From Stygiolobus caldivivus (GTDB lineage Archaea; Thermoproteota; Thermoprotei_A; Sulfolobales; Sulfolobaceae), in assembly GCF_019704315.1 (NCBI RefSeq), contig NZ_AP024597.1:2392501-2456500 (forward strand): a stretch of 64,000 nt of DNA, written 5' to 3'. Position numbers and translations under genes: made by a program. The notes under the pieces were generated by a model. The model searched no databases and was not told the DNA's origin. It saw only the letters and a list, made by a program, of their open reading frames with translations. This document shows positions 1 through 9,498 of the stretch, one piece after another (the stretch's first letter is position 1; every line of letters begins with the position of its first letter).

Positions 1-388
<388 letters not shown>

Positions 389-1901: not shown

Positions 1902-3368
1902 ATGACAATATCATTAATAAGCGAACTTGCTGAACTTCAGCTGCTAATTGAAAAAGAGCAGATTCAGTGCGTAATTAATACGTTGAAAACATGGTATAAG
2001 GAAAAGGAACTAACACCCGATGCGACACCTACTGTTCCTAATGAGACTATTAGGCCGGCGATTTCTGCAGCCTACGGCGTTTTTGACAAGGACGTTAGTT
2101 TGCCGGACATTTTCGGCCACGGGATAATAACTACTGTTAAGGGTAAAGACGGTGATCATTTAGCATATATTGGTAGGGTTAACCCTAATTGGGCCGAAAT
2201 AGTGGTAGCACAGGGTGGTTTTTGGAGGACGAGGTATTTAGGGGTACGTTTCGCTAATTATTTGAAAGAGGATATGAAAAAGGCTGTAAACGCGTTATCC
2301 TCATATACTTATAACATGGGTTTGACTGCGGAGATAAATGATGTAGAGATAGCAGTAGTGGACTTGGGTAGTGTAAAGGACGTTTTCCCTCAAGGTTGGG
2401 TTAATCCGGCAAATATGAGCACTTGTACTCAGTCGCCAAACGTCTTAGGGTCAATAGAGGACTTCATAATGAACTTCCTCAATGAGTACTTGGTAAATTA
2501 TAGGTTTACACTAATACCGTTATACACTGGAAAACTGTTAAAGGGTTTTAGGTCTATTAATATTTCCAGCTGGGGATATGATAAGAAGCATTCGTTTTAC
2601 AGTATTCCTCCAAAAGAAGTATTAGGTCCCAAGTTAGCCGGTATTAGTGAAAACCCGCCTACCTTGTACGGCACTTTCACCATAAAAGCGGTAAAGATAA
2701 TTAAGTATTCACCCATAGTAGCCCCGGCAAACTTTATCGCAGATTCTATAGAGGAGTATTATCATGTACCTTATTCCGACCTTGATATTCTTAAAGCGGG
2801 TATCGGTGCGCCTATGCAGAGTAGCCTTTGGTGCGGGACTAATGGCTGTTCAAACTACGGGAATTTTGCACTTAGTGTGGGTATTTTGAGTATGGGGTTG
2901 GGTAAGATAGGGCCCTTGAACTTGGGGAAGCAGTACAATTATATCGGTATCCCTATACCTGACTTTTCTAACATGACCTTTGACGAAATTCAGTCCTACT
3001 TTAAGGAGGTACTTAACGCGGAAAGGATCATAAAGTTAGCCTTTGTCTTTGGTACTATTCTAACTTCAATTTATGAGGACTACAAGAAGAAGTACGGTGA
3101 TTTGTTTGCGGAGTTCGTTTACCAATGGTTACCAGTGACGGATAACGAGAGCGAGGCTAAACAAGACGCTGAAGGACTTGTAAATATAGCCCAAAAAATA
3201 TACGATAGGGCTAGGGAGGAGATAAACGCCACGAGGTCTTATAGGGCTTTAAGCTACGTTGAGGAATGCCTATTAACCGTTGCAAACCCTTATGGTGAAC
3301 TAGATGAACAAGTTAAGAATGTAGTAAATTGTGCGTTTAATGAAGCCTTTGGTGGTGAAGAAGAGTGA
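1902..3368 (+). CDS. uncharacterised protein, first of three tandem paralogs
   Basis: A 488-residue protein of no family I recognise. It shares motifs with the next two genes: C-x-I-N-T-L-K-x-W near residue 22, an N-x-T-I-R-P-A segment, FGHG near 70, IGRVNPNW near 90, V-V-A-Q-G-G-F, a D-I-L-K-A-G-I-G-A-P-M-Q block, and a C-terminal helical module (FVYQWLP, VNIAQKIYDRAREE, EECLLTVANPY). No signal peptide or membrane segment is evident. ATG 1902 is chosen because GGAGGAGAGGG at 1890-1900 is a strong ribosome-binding site and it gives the same N-terminal length as the paralogs. A GTG at 1866 is an alternative if the mRNA is leaderless from the TATA-like sequence near 1833. Sense-strand codons are rich in G and T. 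Confidence 0.75.
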   Translation: MTISLISELAELQLLIEKEQIQCVINTLKTWYKEKELTPDATPTVPNETIRPAISAAYGVFDKDVSLPDIFGHGIITTVKGKDGDHLAYIGRVNPNWAEIVVAQGGFWRTRYLGVRFANYLKEDMKKAVNALSSYTYNMGLTAEINDVEIAVVDLGSVKDVFPQGWVNPANMSTCTQSPNVLGSIEDFIMNFLNEYLVNYRFTLIPLYTGKLLKGFRSINISSWGYDKKHSFYSIPPKEVLGPKLAGISENPPTLYGTFTIKAVKIIKYSPIVAPANFIADSIEEYYHVPYSDLDILKAGIGAPMQSSLWCGTNGCSNYGNFALSVGILSMGLGKIGPLNLGKQYNYIGIPIPDFSNMTFDEIQSYFKEVLNAERIIKLAFVFGTILTSIYEDYKKKYGDLFAEFVYQWLPVTDNESEAKQDAEGLVNIAQKIYDRAREEINATRSYRALSYVEECLLTVANPYGELDEQVKNVVNCAFNEAFGGEEE

Positions 3369-4468
3369 AGGGCTTGCTTGCAGGGAATGTTTTTATAGTC
3401 CTACCGGACGATTTGGAAACTGAGAACGGGGAAGTTAAGTGCGTTATTAATACTTTAAAAGAATGGTCTGGAAAAAGGTACATTAATATGGTCGCTAACC
3501 ATTATACTGTTCAAAACATGACTATAAGGCCCGCAGTTATATCCCCCTTCTCCCTTTTAAATAAGGGAGTGAGTAAGGGTGACCTTTTCGGTCACGGTGT
3601 GTTGATAAGGACTAAGGATGGGCATTTAGTCTTTATCGGCAGGGTTGACCCTAACTGGACTGGAGTTGTTGTAGCTAGGGGCGAGTTTTGGAAGGCTAAG
3701 TACCTAGGTGTAATGGACTTCAAACCTTTTGGTGTGATAGACTTCGGTAATATAGTGAAGGATTGGGTTAACCCGGCCAGTTCTAAGGTAGTTTCGTATG
3801 TACAAATCCCTTTATATACTGGTAATTTATTGTTGAGTAAGCTTAAGAAGATACCTACGAAGCCTATAGTTGTTGCCTCACACCTCACTTTTCGCACATC
3901 TGATCCGCCCTTTATGTACGGCTCAATTATAAAAGACGGACTAGTCATTAACACGGATTTCATTATAGAAGATATGGAACATTTCCCCGCAAACTGTCCA
4001 CCTCTCGATATACTCAAGGTAGGGATCGGTGCACCTATTCAAGGCGGGTGTGGGTACGGTAACGCTGGCTTAATCGTCGATATTGTAGATAACCACTATG
4101 TCGGCGTCCCTACACCAGACCTTTCGAGCATGACTACTGGTGAAATCGCGGAGTATTTTAAGGACGTGTTGGGGGTCGACTTTAGTCCCATCTTTGAATT
4201 CGGTGATGTCCTTACCGAGGTTTATGAGAAGTATAGTAAGTACGGTTTCGGGGACTTTGTTTACAGGTGGTTGCCTATTGGTAAGAAGGGGGAGGCTGAG
4301 AGGATTTTTAACATAGGTAAGAAGATTTATGAGAGGGCTAAGGAAATGGCGAACAACGAGTACCTGGACAAGTGCTTTTTGGAGTACGCTGATCCCTACT
4401 CAAATATAGATAAAGAGGCGAGGATTGTATATTGCTGTACTAGGTGGGGTTATGGAAGTTTGGTATGA
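3365..4468 (+). CDS. uncharacterised protein, second of three tandem paralogs
   Basis: A 367-residue paralog of the preceding gene. It starts at a GTG overlapping the upstream stop (GTGA), which implies translational coupling. It keeps CVINTLKEW, N-M-T-I-R-P-A, FGHG (near 74), IGRVDPNW, V-V-V-A-R-G, D-W-V-N-P, I-P-L-Y-T-G, D-I-L-K-V-G-I-G-A-P-I-Q and the helical C-terminal module (FVYRWLPIG, NIGKKIYERAKE, KCFLEYADPY). It is shorter than the first protein mainly in the middle and lacks part of the region between the GRV and DWVNP motifs. Function is unknown; no catalytic motif I can name is present. Confidence 0.75.
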   Translation: MKGLLAGNVFIVLPDDLETENGEVKCVINTLKEWSGKRYINMVANHYTVQNMTIRPAVISPFSLLNKGVSKGDLFGHGVLIRTKDGHLVFIGRVDPNWTGVVVARGEFWKAKYLGVMDFKPFGVIDFGNIVKDWVNPASSKVVSYVQIPLYTGNLLLSKLKKIPTKPIVVASHLTFRTSDPPFMYGSIIKDGLVINTDFIIEDMEHFPANCPPLDILKVGIGAPIQGGCGYGNAGLIVDIVDNHYVGVPTPDLSSMTTGEIAEYFKDVLGVDFSPIFEFGDVLTEVYEKYSKYGFGDFVYRWLPIGKKGEAERIFNIGKKIYERAKEMANNEYLDKCFLEYADPYSNIDKEARIVYCCTRWGYGSLV

Positions 4469-5780
4469 AGGAGGGGTATTGAAGGTAATTGGCAATAAAG
4501 ACCCTTGTATTTCAAGTTTTATAGACAAGTGGAGGAAGGAGGGGTTATTGGAGTGGTATTCTACGAGATTTACGGTGGCTAATGTCACTTTGAGGCCCGC
4601 TATAGCCTTTCCCTTTGCGGTCCTTGAGAGGAGTGATGACTTCGGTCACGGTATTCTCGTCAAGACTAAGGATTCTAACTTGTTATATATAGGGAGGGTT
4701 AGCCCTAACTGGTTAGGGGTTTATGTTGCACAGGCTGGGTTTGTGAGGGGGAGGTTTGTAGGTAGGGCGTTTAAGAATGACGAGCTGGGCATTATTAACA
4801 TGGGTATTGTGGGGGATTGGGTCAATCCTTTGATCGGGAGAAGGGTTAATGTTTTACGCGTCCCACTTTACACAGAAAACGTATCGAGGCATATTAAATC
4901 ACGTAAATGGAATTATGTTAACGGTTATTATGAGGGTAGGTCTGTTAGAGTTACAATTACAAGAATTAGTAGGGAGTTACCTAGGGTTTATACTGACGTT
5001 AAGCCTGTAATTGGTGCAGTTATCCAGTCCGGTGATTGTACAAGTTATGGTGATGTGGGGATAGTCGCTGGGTCTGATGGAAAATGGGTTCCTATAGCTG
5101 ACTTCGGTAAGATGACTGTTGATGACGTTGTGGAGTATTTGAGGGGGTATGTGGATCTTGAGGTGGTCGATTCAACTATACCGGGGGTTGAGAAGCATGA
5201 GGATGTAGTTGTTGAATTTGTTTACGAGTGGTATCCTATTAAGGGGGTTGGTGAGTTGGTTTCTTTTGCTGAAAGGGTTTTGGGGAGAGTTAGGGAGGAG
5301 ATAAGTAAGCAGGGGTTTGAAGACTCTTTAAGGTATGTGGATGAGTGTTTCTTGTCAATTGCTAACCCAAATGAAGACTTTTACAAGAATGTTGTCGACG
5401 TGGCTGAATGTGCTGTTAATAAGAATCACGGCTCTTTTACTATGTCTTTTACTTTTGGTAGCTTGATCTCGGTGATTTATGAGGAGGTTAAGGATATGTA
5501 TGGTAAGGATATAGCTAAGTTTGTGTATACTTGGTCTCCTATAACTGGCGATGACATCGAGGCTTGGAAGAATGCCGAGGAGTTGGTTAATATTGGTAAG
5601 GAGGTTTATGAGAAGGCTAAGGAGGAGTTAGTTAAGTGTGGAGATGTTGAGGCTTTAGAGTGTCTTGGTTATTGTTTGGTGAATTGCAGTCCTTATCTTG
5701 AAGGGGAGATAGATGAGAAGGCTAAGAATGTAGCTTGCTGTGCTGTTTTGACGTCTTTTGAAGGGTGTGAGAAGGAGTGA
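4452..5780 (+). CDS. uncharacterised protein, third of three tandem paralogs, with a duplicated C-terminal module
   Basis: A 442-residue paralog of the two preceding genes. It carries N-V-T-L-R-P-A, FGHGI (near 63), IGRVSPNW (near 80), Y-V-A-Q-A-G-F, D-W-V-N-P, V-P-L-Y-T and I-G-A-V-I-Q. The C-terminal helical module occurs twice, beginning at FVYEWYPI (about residue 255) and FVYTWSPI (about 356), each followed by a Y/V-x-K/R-A/V-K/R-E-E helix and a cysteine-containing strand (DECFLSIANP; GYCLVNCSPY). The start at 4452 follows GGTGGGG and overlaps the upstream gene by 17 bases; an ATG at 4425 is the alternative. Codon use is visibly G/T-rich (GTT, GGT, TTT) compared with the purine-rich sense strands of the core genes further right. 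Confidence 0.75.
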   Translation: MEVWYEGGVLKVIGNKDPCISSFIDKWRKEGLLEWYSTRFTVANVTLRPAIAFPFAVLERSDDFGHGILVKTKDSNLLYIGRVSPNWLGVYVAQAGFVRGRFVGRAFKNDELGIINMGIVGDWVNPLIGRRVNVLRVPLYTENVSRHIKSRKWNYVNGYYEGRSVRVTITRISRELPRVYTDVKPVIGAVIQSGDCTSYGDVGIVAGSDGKWVPIADFGKMTVDDVVEYLRGYVDLEVVDSTIPGVEKHEDVVVEFVYEWYPIKGVGELVSFAERVLGRVREEISKQGFEDSLRYVDECFLSIANPNEDFYKNVVDVAECAVNKNHGSFTMSFTFGSLISVIYEEVKDMYGKDIAKFVYTWSPITGDDIEAWKNAEELVNIGKEVYEKAKEELVKCGDVEALECLGYCLVNCSPYLEGEIDEKAKNVACCAVLTSFEGCEKE

Positions 5781-5821
5781 AACGCGTGGTCGAAGAGGTG
5801 AAAGTGAATATTGCGGAAAGT

Positions 5822-6105
5822 TATGCTTTATCAGGAACCGAAGGGCAACGTCAATTCTCTTCCTTAACAATTTTTGGCCTTACACTGACCGCACTGTTAC
5901 CCTTTATTAGCTGACCTGGTATAACATAAATTTCTTCATTAACAAAATTTTCATTATGAAAAATAAGTATCACAGGCTCAACTGTCATAGAATGCTTAAT
6001 TAAGGTTACACCTAGGTTACACTGTGTATTGGGCTCTCTGTGTTGTTACAAAAACACACCGAAAAGCCCTCTTAGCCCATGTTATCAGGGCCTTTCACGA
6101 TCTAT
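5822..6105 (-). repeat. dispersed intergenic repeat, long composite form (copy 2)
   Basis: The first 96 bases (5822-5917) are the short repeat on the minus strand: the complement of TTTTTGGCCTTACACT and CCCTTTATTAG matches the copy at 60153-60250 at roughly three bases in four. The next 190 bases match 8511-8685 in order: GTATAA-x2-TAA-x-TT-x-CTT, then ACTGTCATAG, AATGCTTAAT, CTAGGTTA, GAAAAG and TCACG blocks. The two regions are therefore copies of one unit of 270-285 bases. No coding potential is visible. Confidence 0.7.
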
Positions 6106-6567
6106 TGTGGTTCCCATTTGCCTGACTATGGTAGGCTTATAACATTAAACATACACTTAACAATGTTAATACATAGCACGTGTAAAAGCGTAAAGTGAAG
6201 GGTTAATAACCTAGTTTATACAGGTTAGTCTTTCGTATACTGTATTATTTGTCCACAAATTATACTAATTCGACAGTATGGTATTTCAATTTATAACGGA
6301 GACGTGAGCGACCCGGTTATCATAAATTACGAAATTATTTGCGACCACATCTAATAAACTGGTTTTATATTACTTTATTTCTCGTAATTAAATGGATTTA
6401 ACCCTGAATAAACGTGTTTTATGACTTTTTACTTTATTTAGTTATTTACATTTATTACGCATTAGATACTGTCTCGAGTATAGTGTTGAGAGGCGCAGTG
6501 GACCATAGACGCCGATATTAAATACAGGTGTCTTGTCCTTTAAAGTATGACGGGGTATGAGAAGGCA
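6106..6567. other. non-coding stretch
   Basis: This AT-rich sequence between the repeat and the PIN gene has no convincing open frame. TATA-like tracts occur around 6360-6440, but no matching gene start follows. The end of the stretch holds the 3' side of the minus-strand PIN gene. Confidence 0.4.
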
Positions 6568-7452
6568 TTAGTGCTTAGCAATTAACTCGTTAATGCCCTT
6601 GATCTCTAGCTTATTTTTTAATATTTCGTAAGCTTCCTCGGCGTGTGCTTTGAAGTTACCTCGCGGGTCTGCACTCCCTATTATAATATCGTTCAAATGT
6701 TCCAATACCGTATCATACATTCTTTGAAAATCACTGTCGTCCGTAACAAAGACGACCTCGTCATAGAGTCCTCCACGTAATGACAAGAAAAGGTATTGAA
6801 ATATTATCTGGTCATTCCTACTTGGTGTCTTCTTATATTTTTGAAATTTTAACTTGCTTATATATTTATTAATACTTTCATAAATTAGTTGAATTTCCTT
6901 GATAATATCAATGTTTACAAGTATTTTAATATCATTAAATATTGTGCATTTTTCCCTGATTGTACTTTCTACGCTAGCTATATAGGCCGTTAAGTCTTCA
7001 GTTTTCCTTGTTAAAGCTATATGATTAGTAAGGGCTTCCAAATCGGAGTTTATTAACTTATCTTCCAAGTTTATAAAGAACGCCTTTGCAAGCATTTGTC
7101 TTATTCCTGCAGGAAGAATTTGTCCATTATATTTGCTTTTTCGTATCTGTTCATAGAGTTGGTCAAAGTCCTTCCTTATATCGTCGATGATTCGTGATTT
7201 CTCTTCAATGTCCAGTTTGTTCCAATTAGGCTTGGATAGTATTATTTTCTCATAAATTACATGTGAGGCCATATTATAGGCGTCGTTAATTATAGTCTCA
7301 AATTCAGATAAGTTTAAAGGGAGCACGACGCATTGCCCCTTACTTAACGAGTTGATAAAACCTTCGATAGCCGGGTTTTCATTCAAAATTTTCCTATATA
7401 CCCATTTTACGAGAATATTAGTATCTAAGAAAAAAGCTTTATTTTTACTCAT
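6568..7452 (-). CDS. PIN-domain nuclease with a large helical insertion
   Basis: A 294-residue protein with PIN-fold acidic residues: FFLDTN (D10), NLSEFE (E50), D214 in NDQIIFQ, and VTDDSDF (D238, D239, D241). PIN proteins are usually metal-dependent ribonucleases; VapC toxins are about 130 residues. Here about 160 mostly helical residues lie between the second and third acidic positions, so it is not an ordinary VapC. It starts 8 bases before the stop of the upstream gene, so the two are co-translated. The target is unknown. The pair could be a toxin-antitoxin-like or defence module, or a housekeeping RNase with a partner. Confidence 0.8.
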   Translation of the reverse strand: MSKNKAFFLDTNILVKWVYRKILNENPAIEGFINSLSKGQCVVLPLNLSEFETIINDAYNMASHVIYEKIILSKPNWNKLDIEEKSRIIDDIRKDFDQLYEQIRKSKYNGQILPAGIRQMLAKAFFINLEDKLINSDLEALTNHIALTRKTEDLTAYIASVESTIREKCTIFNDIKILVNIDIIKEIQLIYESINKYISKLKFQKYKKTPSRNDQIIFQYLFLSLRGGLYDEVVFVTDDSDFQRMYDTVLEHLNDIIIGSADPRGNFKAHAEEAYEILKNKLEIKGINELIAKH

Positions 7453-8149
7453 TTTTTACCACATGGAGCTTTGAAAAAAGGTAATACCCCCAGGAGTCTT
7501 TTGAGGGCATGGGTGTCTTATCAGCTACTAGTACATGCAGTAGTGCCCCGCTCAGCTCGGATATGTAGGGGAATACTTCTTTTTTCTTTATGTAAATTAG
7601 TATAGGCATCCCCAAAAACCCTACTAGGAAATTAGCCATGTTGAATGTGTATTTAAGCTGTGAGTCCTTCGTCTTTATGTTAGGGTTAGGTATGTTTATT
7701 TTACGCAGTTTTAGGTATGTCGATGTCACGAAACGTAAATATAATGAATAATAAGTGGTTATCAGGAAATTAGGGCTGTTTGAGTTTAATACCTCGTTAT
7801 AAAACTTCTCTTCGTTTTCCTTTAACCCGTTAATGAGTTTCCTTAAGCCCTCCATTACCATTTCTCTGTATTCCCCTATAGTCGTGTTGTTTTCTAATAG
7901 CGAGTTGTATAGTTCAAAATCCTCCTTTATTTTTTCAGTCTCTTCTGACAATACCCTTAACTTATCCTCATCTTCGGGGTTTAGGGCTAACGTCAATAAC
8001 CCTTCATAAACCTCGAACAAATTTTTCTCATACTTCTCAATCAAATAATCCTTCATCTTCTCTAAATATTGGACAGGGAAGTTCCTATTTTTCACTCCTT
8101 GTAAAGAGTTATAATATTCCTCAAAAGGGATTGAGAGTTCTTCTGACAT
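7445..8149 (-). CDS. uncharacterised helical partner of the PIN nuclease
   Basis: A 234-residue protein, probably all-helical, rich in Glu and Lys with long charged helices (about residues 30-140). A more hydrophobic segment follows (NMANFLVGFLGMPILIYI). No DNA-binding motif typical of VapB or other antitoxins is visible, and I do not recognise the family. ATG 8149 is chosen because the TATA box CTTTATAAAT at 8171-8180 lies about 26 bases upstream, giving a leaderless mRNA. It is the first gene of a two-gene operon with the PIN gene and overlaps it by 8 bases. Confidence 0.65.
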   Translation of the reverse strand: MSEELSIPFEEYYNSLQGVKNRNFPVQYLEKMKDYLIEKYEKNLFEVYEGLLTLALNPEDEDKLRVLSEETEKIKEDFELYNSLLENNTTIGEYREMVMEGLRKLINGLKENEEKFYNEVLNSNSPNFLITTYYSLYLRFVTSTYLKLRKINIPNPNIKTKDSQLKYTFNMANFLVGFLGMPILIYIKKKEVFPYISELSGALLHVLVADKTPMPSKDSWGYYLFSKLHVVKNE

Positions 8150-8170
8150 GGTCATCGATCTATAATACAT

Positions 8171-8180
8171 ATTTATAAAG
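8171..8180 (-). promoter_or_regulatory. TATA box of the PIN operon
   Basis: CTTTATAAAT on the minus strand lies about 26 bases before ATG 8149, the normal spacing for a leaderless Sulfolobales transcript. This decides the start of the first gene. Confidence 0.6.
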
Positions 8181-8273
8181 CACTCCACAAAAAACTTTTC
8201 TCTGACTACCCTATAGTTGACCCGGTTTTCCCCTTAACTCTTCCTTTAGACTCATGAGGACGTCCAATGTATA

Positions 8274-8786: not shown

Positions 8787-9164
8787 CTAGCCTAGTCCAA
8801 AATTTCTCTTCAACCACTCGACCACTTCCGTTGCAGATTTTAAACACTCTTCAGCTTTCCTCCTGTTATAATCAGCGAACTGCGAATAGCGGGACATTAC
8901 GTAGTGGGGTGTTAAGAAATCGCAGTCGTGTAGTATGTTTTGGGGGACGTCTATGGATAGTTCGTCCCTGACCCTCTCCGCCAGTTCTCCTAGGTCATGG
9001 GTAAAAGGGAAAACCCCCTTGTGTTTGACTAAAATACCTTTTAATGCGAATTCGACACTCTGCTGGCTCCCGAAGCACACGAACCAGTAATACCCGTCTT
9101 CTAAGTGCTTTTTAGCTAAGTCGAGGAACTCTTTGCTCTTCTCGAACCAGAACTTCTCTACCAT
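8787..9164 (-). CDS. HEPN-domain protein
   Basis: A 125-residue HEPN protein of the kind paired with minimal nucleotidyltransferases. Helices of the family are recognisable: FEKSKEFLDLAKKHLEDGYYWFVCFGSQQSVEFALKGILV, then a PFTHDLGELAERV helix, and a C-terminal SRYSQFADYNRRKAEECLKSATEVVEWLK. The RNase motif R-x(4-6)-H of HepT toxins is not visible in the last helices; the RY motif of MNT-associated HEPN proteins is. ATG 9164 is chosen over the upstream ATG (9233) because the family begins here and a TATA box (GTTTATATT, minus strand, about 9187-9195) lies about 26 bases upstream. Its partner is read divergently from 9199. Confidence 0.85.
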   Translation of the reverse strand: MVEKFWFEKSKEFLDLAKKHLEDGYYWFVCFGSQQSVEFALKGILVKHKGVFPFTHDLGELAERVRDELSIDVPQNILHDCDFLTPHYVMSRYSQFADYNRRKAEECLKSATEVVEWLKRNFGLG

Positions 9165-9167
9165 TAT

Positions 9168-9195
9168 CTTTAAATCCAGTGTAGGTAATATAAAC
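9168..9195. promoter_or_regulatory. interlocked divergent promoters of the HEPN/MNT pair
   Basis: The 34 bases between the two start codons hold CTTTAAATC (9168-9176, plus strand, 27 bases before ATG 9199) and GTTTATATT (9187-9195, minus strand, 26 bases before ATG 9164). Each box sits next to the other gene's start, so the two transcripts probably compete for promoter occupancy. Confidence 0.65.
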
Positions 9196-9198
9196 GCG

Positions 9199-9498
9199 AT
9201 GGGCTTTGAGGACTTTGTTGATAAAGTGGTCAAGTATTATACCGGTAAGGTTACGGTGGTCCTTTTTGGGTCTAGGGCTAGGGGGGATCACTGGGAGTCT
9301 AGTGACTACGATATTATGGTCTTTCTCGAGAGAGTTGAAGACCCGGTCGGGGAAGCTACAAGGCTCTACTCCATGAAGAGGGGTTTTTCTGCAGATATCC
9401 TCGTCTTAAGTGCAGATAAGGTTAAGGAACCGGTGGTCGTTAAAATGCTTGAGCACAAAAAAGTCATTTATGATGGGCTAAACATATTTGACGACTAG
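9199..9498 (+). CDS. minimal nucleotidyltransferase (MNT) paired with HEPN
   Basis: A 99-residue protein with the polymerase-beta-type nucleotidyltransferase motif VVLFGSRARGDHWESSDYDI: GS followed by D-x-D, the metal-binding acidic pair, and a later acidic strand SADILVL. In characterised MntA/HepT systems the MNT AMPylates and neutralises the HEPN toxin. Whether that holds here is inference, because the HEPN partner lacks an obvious R-x(4-6)-H motif. ATG 9199 is chosen because it follows a TATA box at leaderless spacing; upstream codons in frame overlap the HEPN start. The divergent arrangement with its partner is unusual. Confidence 0.88.
   Translation: MGFEDFVDKVVKYYTGKVTVVLFGSRARGDHWESSDYDIMVFLERVEDPVGEATRLYSMKRGFSADILVLSADKVKEPVVVKMLEHKKVIYDGLNIFDD

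Follow-up and report, generated by a model that had tools for sequence, protein, structure and literature searches.

The three overlapping genes described here are, on the basis of sequence comparison, a tandem and fast-diverging offshoot of an undescribed multigene family of the Sulfolobaceae, and this family adjoins stable-RNA genes far more often than expected by chance or than an IS element residing in the same genome as some of its copies.

The window genes and their family

The three adjacent, overlapping paralogues proposed in the initial annotation (P1, P2 and P3; Table 1) were all present as ORFs in the window, the 64,000-nucleotide stretch of Stygiolobus caldivivus DNA that was analyzed, and the string of motifs listed for them was found in the three proteins. 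The GTG start of P2 lay over the P1 stop codon (4 bp overlap), P2 and P3 overlapped by 17 bp, and possible alternative starts were a GTG at 1866 for P1 and a TTG at 4425 for P3. Mutual homology of the proteins was strong, with local-alignment scores 89, 72, and 56 SD over shuffles, and the two copies of the C-terminal module in P3 aligned with a score of 78 against a shuffle maximum of 48. The dN/dS ratio between P1 and P2 was ∼0.19 (dN 0.48; dS 2.6, near saturation), consistent with translated genes.

Table 1. Positions of the three window genes, their motifs and modules, and the neighboring rRNA gene.
Feature	Position	Strand	Description or basis
16S rRNA gene, 5′ end in window	1..388	-	Stable-RNA neighbor of the cluster, ∼1.5 kb from P1
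GGAGG, likely Shine-Dalgarno of P1	1890..1894	+	Sequence
P1	1902..3368	+	488 aa, ATG start; N-terminal cap, predicted beta-rich core, IGAP loop, C-terminal helical module
FGHG motif of P1 (most of family: R-H/Q-G)	2112..2123	+	
YIGRVNPNW motif of P1 (most of family: YIGGxSPYW)	2166..2192	+	
IGAP motif of P1	2802..2813	+	
P1 C-terminal helical module, approximate limits	2979..3356	+	AlphaFold models
P2	3365..4468	+	367 aa, GTG start; family member
P3	4452..5780	+	442 aa, ATG start; family member with duplicated C-terminal module
P3 C-terminal module, copy 1	5208..5417	+	Alignment vs shuffles
P3 C-terminal module, copy 2	5511..5747	+	Alignment vs shuffles

An iterated HMM search assembled a dispersed, multicopy family of 71 ORFs and fragments in ∼40 loci, in which many copies have decayed; roughly half of the searched Sulfolobaceae genomes, Metallosphaera among them, contained members. 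When the family profile was built without the window clade, it retrieved P1, P2, and P3 at E = 5.1e-26, 5.6e-11, and 9.5e-9, and reversed ORFs gave no reported match to the same profile at E ≤ 10. The closest relatives of the window genes, at loci L011 and L012, were complete single genes, and a genome of the same genus (G001) had no match to the window region. Relatives had been expected in the Sulfolobales or in their viruses and plasmids; the cellular part of this expectation was borne out, with the Sulfolobaceae as the sole source of relatives found so far, but none was found in the viral, phage, and plasmid collections, for which the queries differed from one collection to another. A description of the family was not found in the open-access literature.

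The earlier statement that no known domain could be recognized agreed with our searches, in which P1–P3 had no accepted match in Pfam, NCBIfam, PHROG, or PADLOC and 13 family members had none in Pfam. Membrane anchoring was not indicated either, there being no consistent transmembrane segment and modest hydropathy peaks (maximum 2.4). Of the mobile or defense-related role suggested for the genes, mobile character was recovered at the level of the family, whereas defense was not, PADLOC giving only a HORMA match in P3. This match (13.5 bits, E 0.012) was attributed to chance, being missing in P1 and P2 and reaching 12.7 bits in Pfam against a cut-off of 27.3. Matches to helical PDB entries, to a tape-measure PHROG, and weakly to phages by tblastn were likewise set aside, as they reflected low-complexity similarity between helices in the C-terminal module.

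Proximity to stable-RNA genes

A tRNA or SRP RNA gene was located within 800 bp in 24 of 37 roughly independent loci, where ∼4.5% would be expected. Another 8 of the 37 loci flanked an rRNA operon, as does the window cluster, and the rRNA operon noticed beside it in the initial annotation fits this family-wide pattern. The subfamily linked to rRNA appears to be an old one inherited vertically, rather than freshly inserted. All four dispersed copies in the genome of the window were 480–791 bp from a tRNA gene (4% for random placement), and all seven family loci of M. javensis were beside an RNA gene.

Such a distribution could also arise passively, if duplicates landed anywhere but were retained solely in spacers that tolerate insertion and are free of operons, as many of those next to stable-RNA genes are. 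Copies occurred on both sides of the tRNA, at distances of 6–800 bp and in all orientations, and a few sat elsewhere (5 of 37 loci had no tRNA, SRP RNA, or rRNA gene inside the limits used), both of which passive survival would accommodate. However, an IS element of M. javensis, for which the same spacers should be equally tolerant, was beside a tRNA gene in only 1 of 16 loci, and HtrA genes taken as controls were so placed in 2 of 18 loci, at one orthologous site. We consider passive survival somewhat unlikely as the explanation.

The duplicated unit and its exchange

The duplicated unit consisted of the gene and ∼70 bp upstream, its own promoter region. Copies were 99.7% identical over 1471 bp in one pair and 95.8% over 1505 bp in another, with unrelated flanks; in the former pair (genome G004) the gene alone was in common, and both units encoded the family gene only, without a transposase or other linked recombinase. 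The tRNA-Pro site was empty in the genomes of four related species, and three genomes had an empty site at tRNA-Gly. One insertion was accompanied by an imperfect direct repeat of 62 bp and a second by none, and terminal inverted repeats were not evident by eye at the unit ends.

The copies might instead be cargo or remnants of tRNA-targeting integrative elements of the SSV or pNOB8 type, in which the family gene outlasts the decay of its carrier. Archaeal integrases prefer tRNA genes as targets (PMC8371274), the family resembles these elements of the Sulfolobales in occupying sites beside many different tRNA genes, and insertion at tRNA genes, as in integrase-borne tRNA islands, was seen in the 24 loci counted above. 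One locus, L023, even contained a fragment of an SSV-type integrase along with an exact second copy of the tRNA-Gln 3′ end, but the family gene was outside this att pair. No further integrase-like ORF was detected across the ∼40 loci, in a search that covered other recombinase classes less exhaustively, and no duplicated tRNA end enclosed the copy in 22 loci tested, apart from matches that were further tRNA genes. Unlike these elements, the family unit is gene-sized and lies outside the tRNA, on both sides of it, and also at rRNA and SRP RNA genes. In two genomes, recent copies had borders at gene length and no surrounding element, and the viral and plasmid collections held no relative, so that an origin from integrative elements appears unlikely.

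A different parallel is offered by the eukaryotic retrotransposons Ty3 and Dictyostelium TRE, which target the flanks of tRNA genes and not the gene itself. The family copies are likewise in the flanks, although their unit lacks reverse transcriptase, integrase, and terminal repeats, and carries an upstream promoter region.

Copies were mosaic, with adjacent blocks 48–100% identical and dN/dS of 0.25–0.46, which shows that copies swap internal segments, apparently by gene conversion, and yet are under purifying selection. Dispersed homologous copies, mosaic identity, and purifying selection are shared with multigene families diversified by gene conversion; a known surface location or a single expression site is not.

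Predicted structure and proposed role

The initial annotation took the overlapping reading frames as a sign of a multi-subunit complex. Overlapping frames do not imply a protein complex, and an obligate heterotrimer of P1, P2, and P3, for which the overlaps and the similar modules might speak, is quite improbable given that L011, L012, and nearly all other relatives are complete single genes. Structure prediction, envisaged for all three proteins, yielded for the window only a P1 monomer model with pLDDT 42, too poor for a structure search.

The model of the relative L091, from a shallow AlphaFold alignment of 11 rows built after a collection scan that returned just two species, had a pLDDT of 66 and pTM of 0.73, and parts of its second half were weakly predicted. 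Compared with solved structures, all 50 matches listed were chymotrypsin-fold proteases, at Z 7.5–8.2 over ∼190 residues (VIA, Z 8.2), although a Z of ∼8 can also be reached by unrelated models; the top viral structural match was a serine protease (probability 0.57, E 0.06). Foldseek against the PDB gave nothing significant (best E 0.086, to cereblon, matches to which were not used), a PDB profile search gave no trypsin match, and hhalign against 18 Sulfolobaceae HtrA proteins gave a probability of 0.2%. A chymotrypsin-like fold had been guessed from motifs ahead of the fold search.

Together with this moderate structural alignment over the protease domain, the strand order and a final helix past the last strand fit the chymotrypsin-fold (PA clan, S1/HtrA) proteases, and the family pattern GAPxxS..C..GLVsG resembles the protease GDSGGPLVC..GIVSWG. 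The family differs in having no significant sequence similarity to these proteases, no conserved catalytic Ser, His, or Asp, and an extra five-helix C-terminal module. In P1, IGAP would map to the trypsin GDSGGP, with Ile at the Ser position, and YIGRVNPNW would be where the fold carries its His loop, with no His there. Among members with a clear motif, the expected Ser position (xGAP) was mostly I, V, or L, otherwise Q, E, or T, and never Ser. A chymotrypsin-like two-barrel core is suggested for the N-terminal 350 residues, followed by the helical module and with no conserved triad. That the proteins are enzymes, as active proteases or other hydrolases with an unusual active site on the conserved Ser249 (95%), Gln104 (92%), or Cys316 (100%), is very improbable despite this conservation and the possible fold, since His, Asp, Glu, and Lys are nowhere conserved in the family alignment, the predicted Ser position is hydrophobic, and the conserved Cys would more simply form disulfides or be structural.

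Taken as a whole, we hold with moderate confidence that this is an undescribed stable-RNA-flanking family of non-catalytic binders in a diversifying cassette. The proteins would act by binding rather than proteolysis, new copies would enter stable-RNA flanks as gene-length DNA by recombination, and these flanks would be transcriptionally open, tolerant sites. Shuffling of a variable central segment would diversify which partners are bound, for instance during conflict with competitors or viruses, and the three translationally coupled paralogues of the window would supply three binders together. More tentatively, the family may represent an archaeal mobile gene of a novel kind, in which a promoter and gene unit without its own transposase or integrase inserts by preference next to tRNA, SRP RNA, and rRNA genes, its product being a non-catalytic chymotrypsin-fold protein with a central segment reshuffled between copies.

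These results bring to light a sizeable protein family of the Sulfolobaceae that has neither a name nor a curated model. Its preference for stable-RNA flanks without a recognizable recombinase raises the testable question of how gene-sized DNA inserts in these archaea, which bears on genome plasticity and on a possible host–virus conflict. If the fold is borne out, the family would represent an additional set of archaeal proteins that have a protease fold but are apparently inactive.

Organization of the P1–P3 triplet and its neighbors

As the initial annotation had it, the window contains three overlapping ORFs (P1, P2, and P3), with overlaps of 4 bp (P1/P2) and 17 bp (P2/P3). Pairwise alignment scores of 56–89 SD over shuffled sequences bore out their paralogy, and the shared motifs reported earlier were confirmed, the C-terminal module occurring in two copies within P3. 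The ATG at 1902 was preferred to the GTG at 1866 as the start of P1 because a GGAGG motif lies upstream of the former. The 5′ end of the 16S rRNA gene is 1.5 kb from the triplet, which is flanked by long spacers (388–1866 and 5780–6540) without ORFs of at least 80 aa; a 28-bp inverted repeat (1169–1196/1397–1424, 82%) lies in the first of these. The genes are best read as a tandem, translationally coupled triplet of one family; the complex of P1, P2, and P3 proposed initially is possible but unsupported.

Genes of the triplet and its surroundings in the window
Feature	Position	Strand	Description
P1	1902–3368	+	ORF, 488 aa
P2	3365–4468	+	ORF, 367 aa
P3	4452–5780	+	ORF, 442 aa
PIN-like gene and overlapping partner gene	6568–7452 and 7445–8188	−	our reading
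HEPN and nucleotidyltransferase (MNT-like) genes	8787–9498	divergent	Pfam, E 3e-32 and 1e-10

The PIN-like gene had no Pfam match. In Metallosphaera javensis (L013:10048–11002), a homologue of its partner was found 1 kb from a broken P1-like member adjoining a tRNA gene, so these two genes may move together with the P1 clade. The HEPN and MNT-like genes are a typical HEPN-MNT toxin-antitoxin-like pair.

Family membership and sequence evolution

P1–P3 had no meaningful match in Pfam, NCBIfam, PHROGs, or PADLOC, in agreement with the earlier statement that no known domain was recognizable, and a search of 40 related genomes plus that of the host yielded few close relatives. Genome G023 supplied an intermediate homologue that retrieved additional host copies, and one of these, used as query in turn, had matches in 16 of 31 Sulfolobaceae genomes. 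Iterating an HMM on the retrieved loci until convergence gave 71 ORFs and fragments. When the window clade was left out of the profile, P1, P2, and P3 were still recovered (E 5e-26, 6e-11, and 1e-8), and no reversed ORF was reported at E 10 or better. Members are usually 450–590 aa long, and several have frameshifts or in-frame stops, so decay is frequent. P1–P3 and two single-gene G023 relatives formed one clade (support 100/99) with long branches. No relative was found among the viral contigs, phages, and plasmids searched. Confinement to Sulfolobaceae is a present impression, not proof, since it is based on a narrow query (P0002; no match in 16 genomes from other families of the order) and one scan of genome contigs, with matches only in M. 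javensis and Candidatus Aramenus.

The M. javensis copies are mosaics: L091 and L092 were 90–100% identical outside codons 180–330 and 48–74% within, and L091 and L094 86–100% identical across most of this inner stretch. Pairwise dN/dS was 0.25–0.46, indicating that the proteins are constrained although the central part varies. The rRNA-linked copies from several genera fell into a single clade, which suggests an old rRNA-linked subfamily besides more mobile tRNA-linked copies.

Genomic location and unit of duplication

Rfam scans showed that almost all copies adjoin a tRNA gene, SRP RNA, or rRNA operon. In the host genome (45 tRNA genes), all four dispersed copies were 480–791 bp from a tRNA gene, compared with 4.4% of randomly placed 1.5-kb genes within 1 kb. 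With obvious orthologous sites merged (n = 37 loci), a tRNA or SRP gene lay within 800 bp in 24, eight flanked an rRNA operon, and five had neither; the binomial tail for 24/37 (∼1e-23 at p = 0.045) is inflated, as the loci are not wholly independent. As a control for insertion tolerance, 16 IS-element places in M. javensis had one tRNA gene, against seven of seven family loci; HtrA control loci had a tRNA nearby in 2/18, comprising one orthologous site. Copies occurred on both sides of the tRNA in every orientation, the 3′ side being commoner. Broken or split members (185, 240, and 297 aa) lie on the 23S side of the host rRNA operon (L014:285–2685), across from the triplet, and family genes thus occupy both flanks. 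A cluster of at least five copies (G012, L070:4358–19780), partly inside a 3-kb inverted duplication (98% identical), had no stable RNA near. A short ORF adjoining another copy (L086:3411–3629; E 3e-4 with the family profile) is probably a further fragment.

Two G004 copies, 58 kb apart with unrelated flanks, were 99.7% identical across 1471 bp, from 72 bp upstream of the ATG to ∼30 bp short of the gene end. An M. javensis pair was 95.8% identical across 1505 bp, from 73 bp upstream of the ATG to 30 bp downstream of the stop. Such gene-limited identity could also be explained by gene conversion alone, but empty sites could not: of two M. javensis copies compared with relatives, a 1.9-kb insert by tRNA-Pro was missing from four other genomes of the genus, and a 2.3-kb insert by tRNA-Gly (copy and IS piece) from three. 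An imperfect 62-bp direct repeat bordered one of these inserts and none the other, and no duplicated tRNA end enclosing a copy was found. An SSV-type integrase fragment occurred in one locus only (L023:614–1471), where the tRNA-Gln 3′ end is perfectly duplicated (1426 and 3258–3330); this att pair excludes the family gene and, with the fragment, is the remnant of an integrated element beside it.

Predicted fold and proposed role

A chymotrypsin-like fold was guessed from motifs prior to structure prediction. AlphaFold modeled the M. javensis copy L091 from an 11-sequence alignment with pLDDT 66 and pTM 0.73 (P1 reached a pLDDT of only 42). Foldseek with the L091 model found nothing significant in the PDB, and the best viral structure match was a periplasmic serine protease (probability 0.57, E 0.06). 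The top 50 after VIA-align re-ranking were chymotrypsin-fold proteases only (thrombin, urokinase, DegQ, and DegS among them), at Z 7.5–8.2 over ∼190 residues (model residues 56–358). Because PDB redundancy swells this list and a Z near 8 is not decisive, this fold is moderately probable. If the fold is right, most members have I, V, or L at the Ser195 position and a few have Q, E, or T. The family alignment had no conserved His or Asp column, the conserved residues being Gly, Pro, Trp, Cys, one Ser (S249), and one Gln (Q104). Sequence-profile comparison with HtrA did not support homology.

The family is best read as non-catalytic binding proteins, spreading and diversifying as gene-sized copies by stable-RNA genes. 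This genomic behavior is well supported and the predicted fold suggestive; that the proteins act by binding, or have any part in conflict, is our inference.
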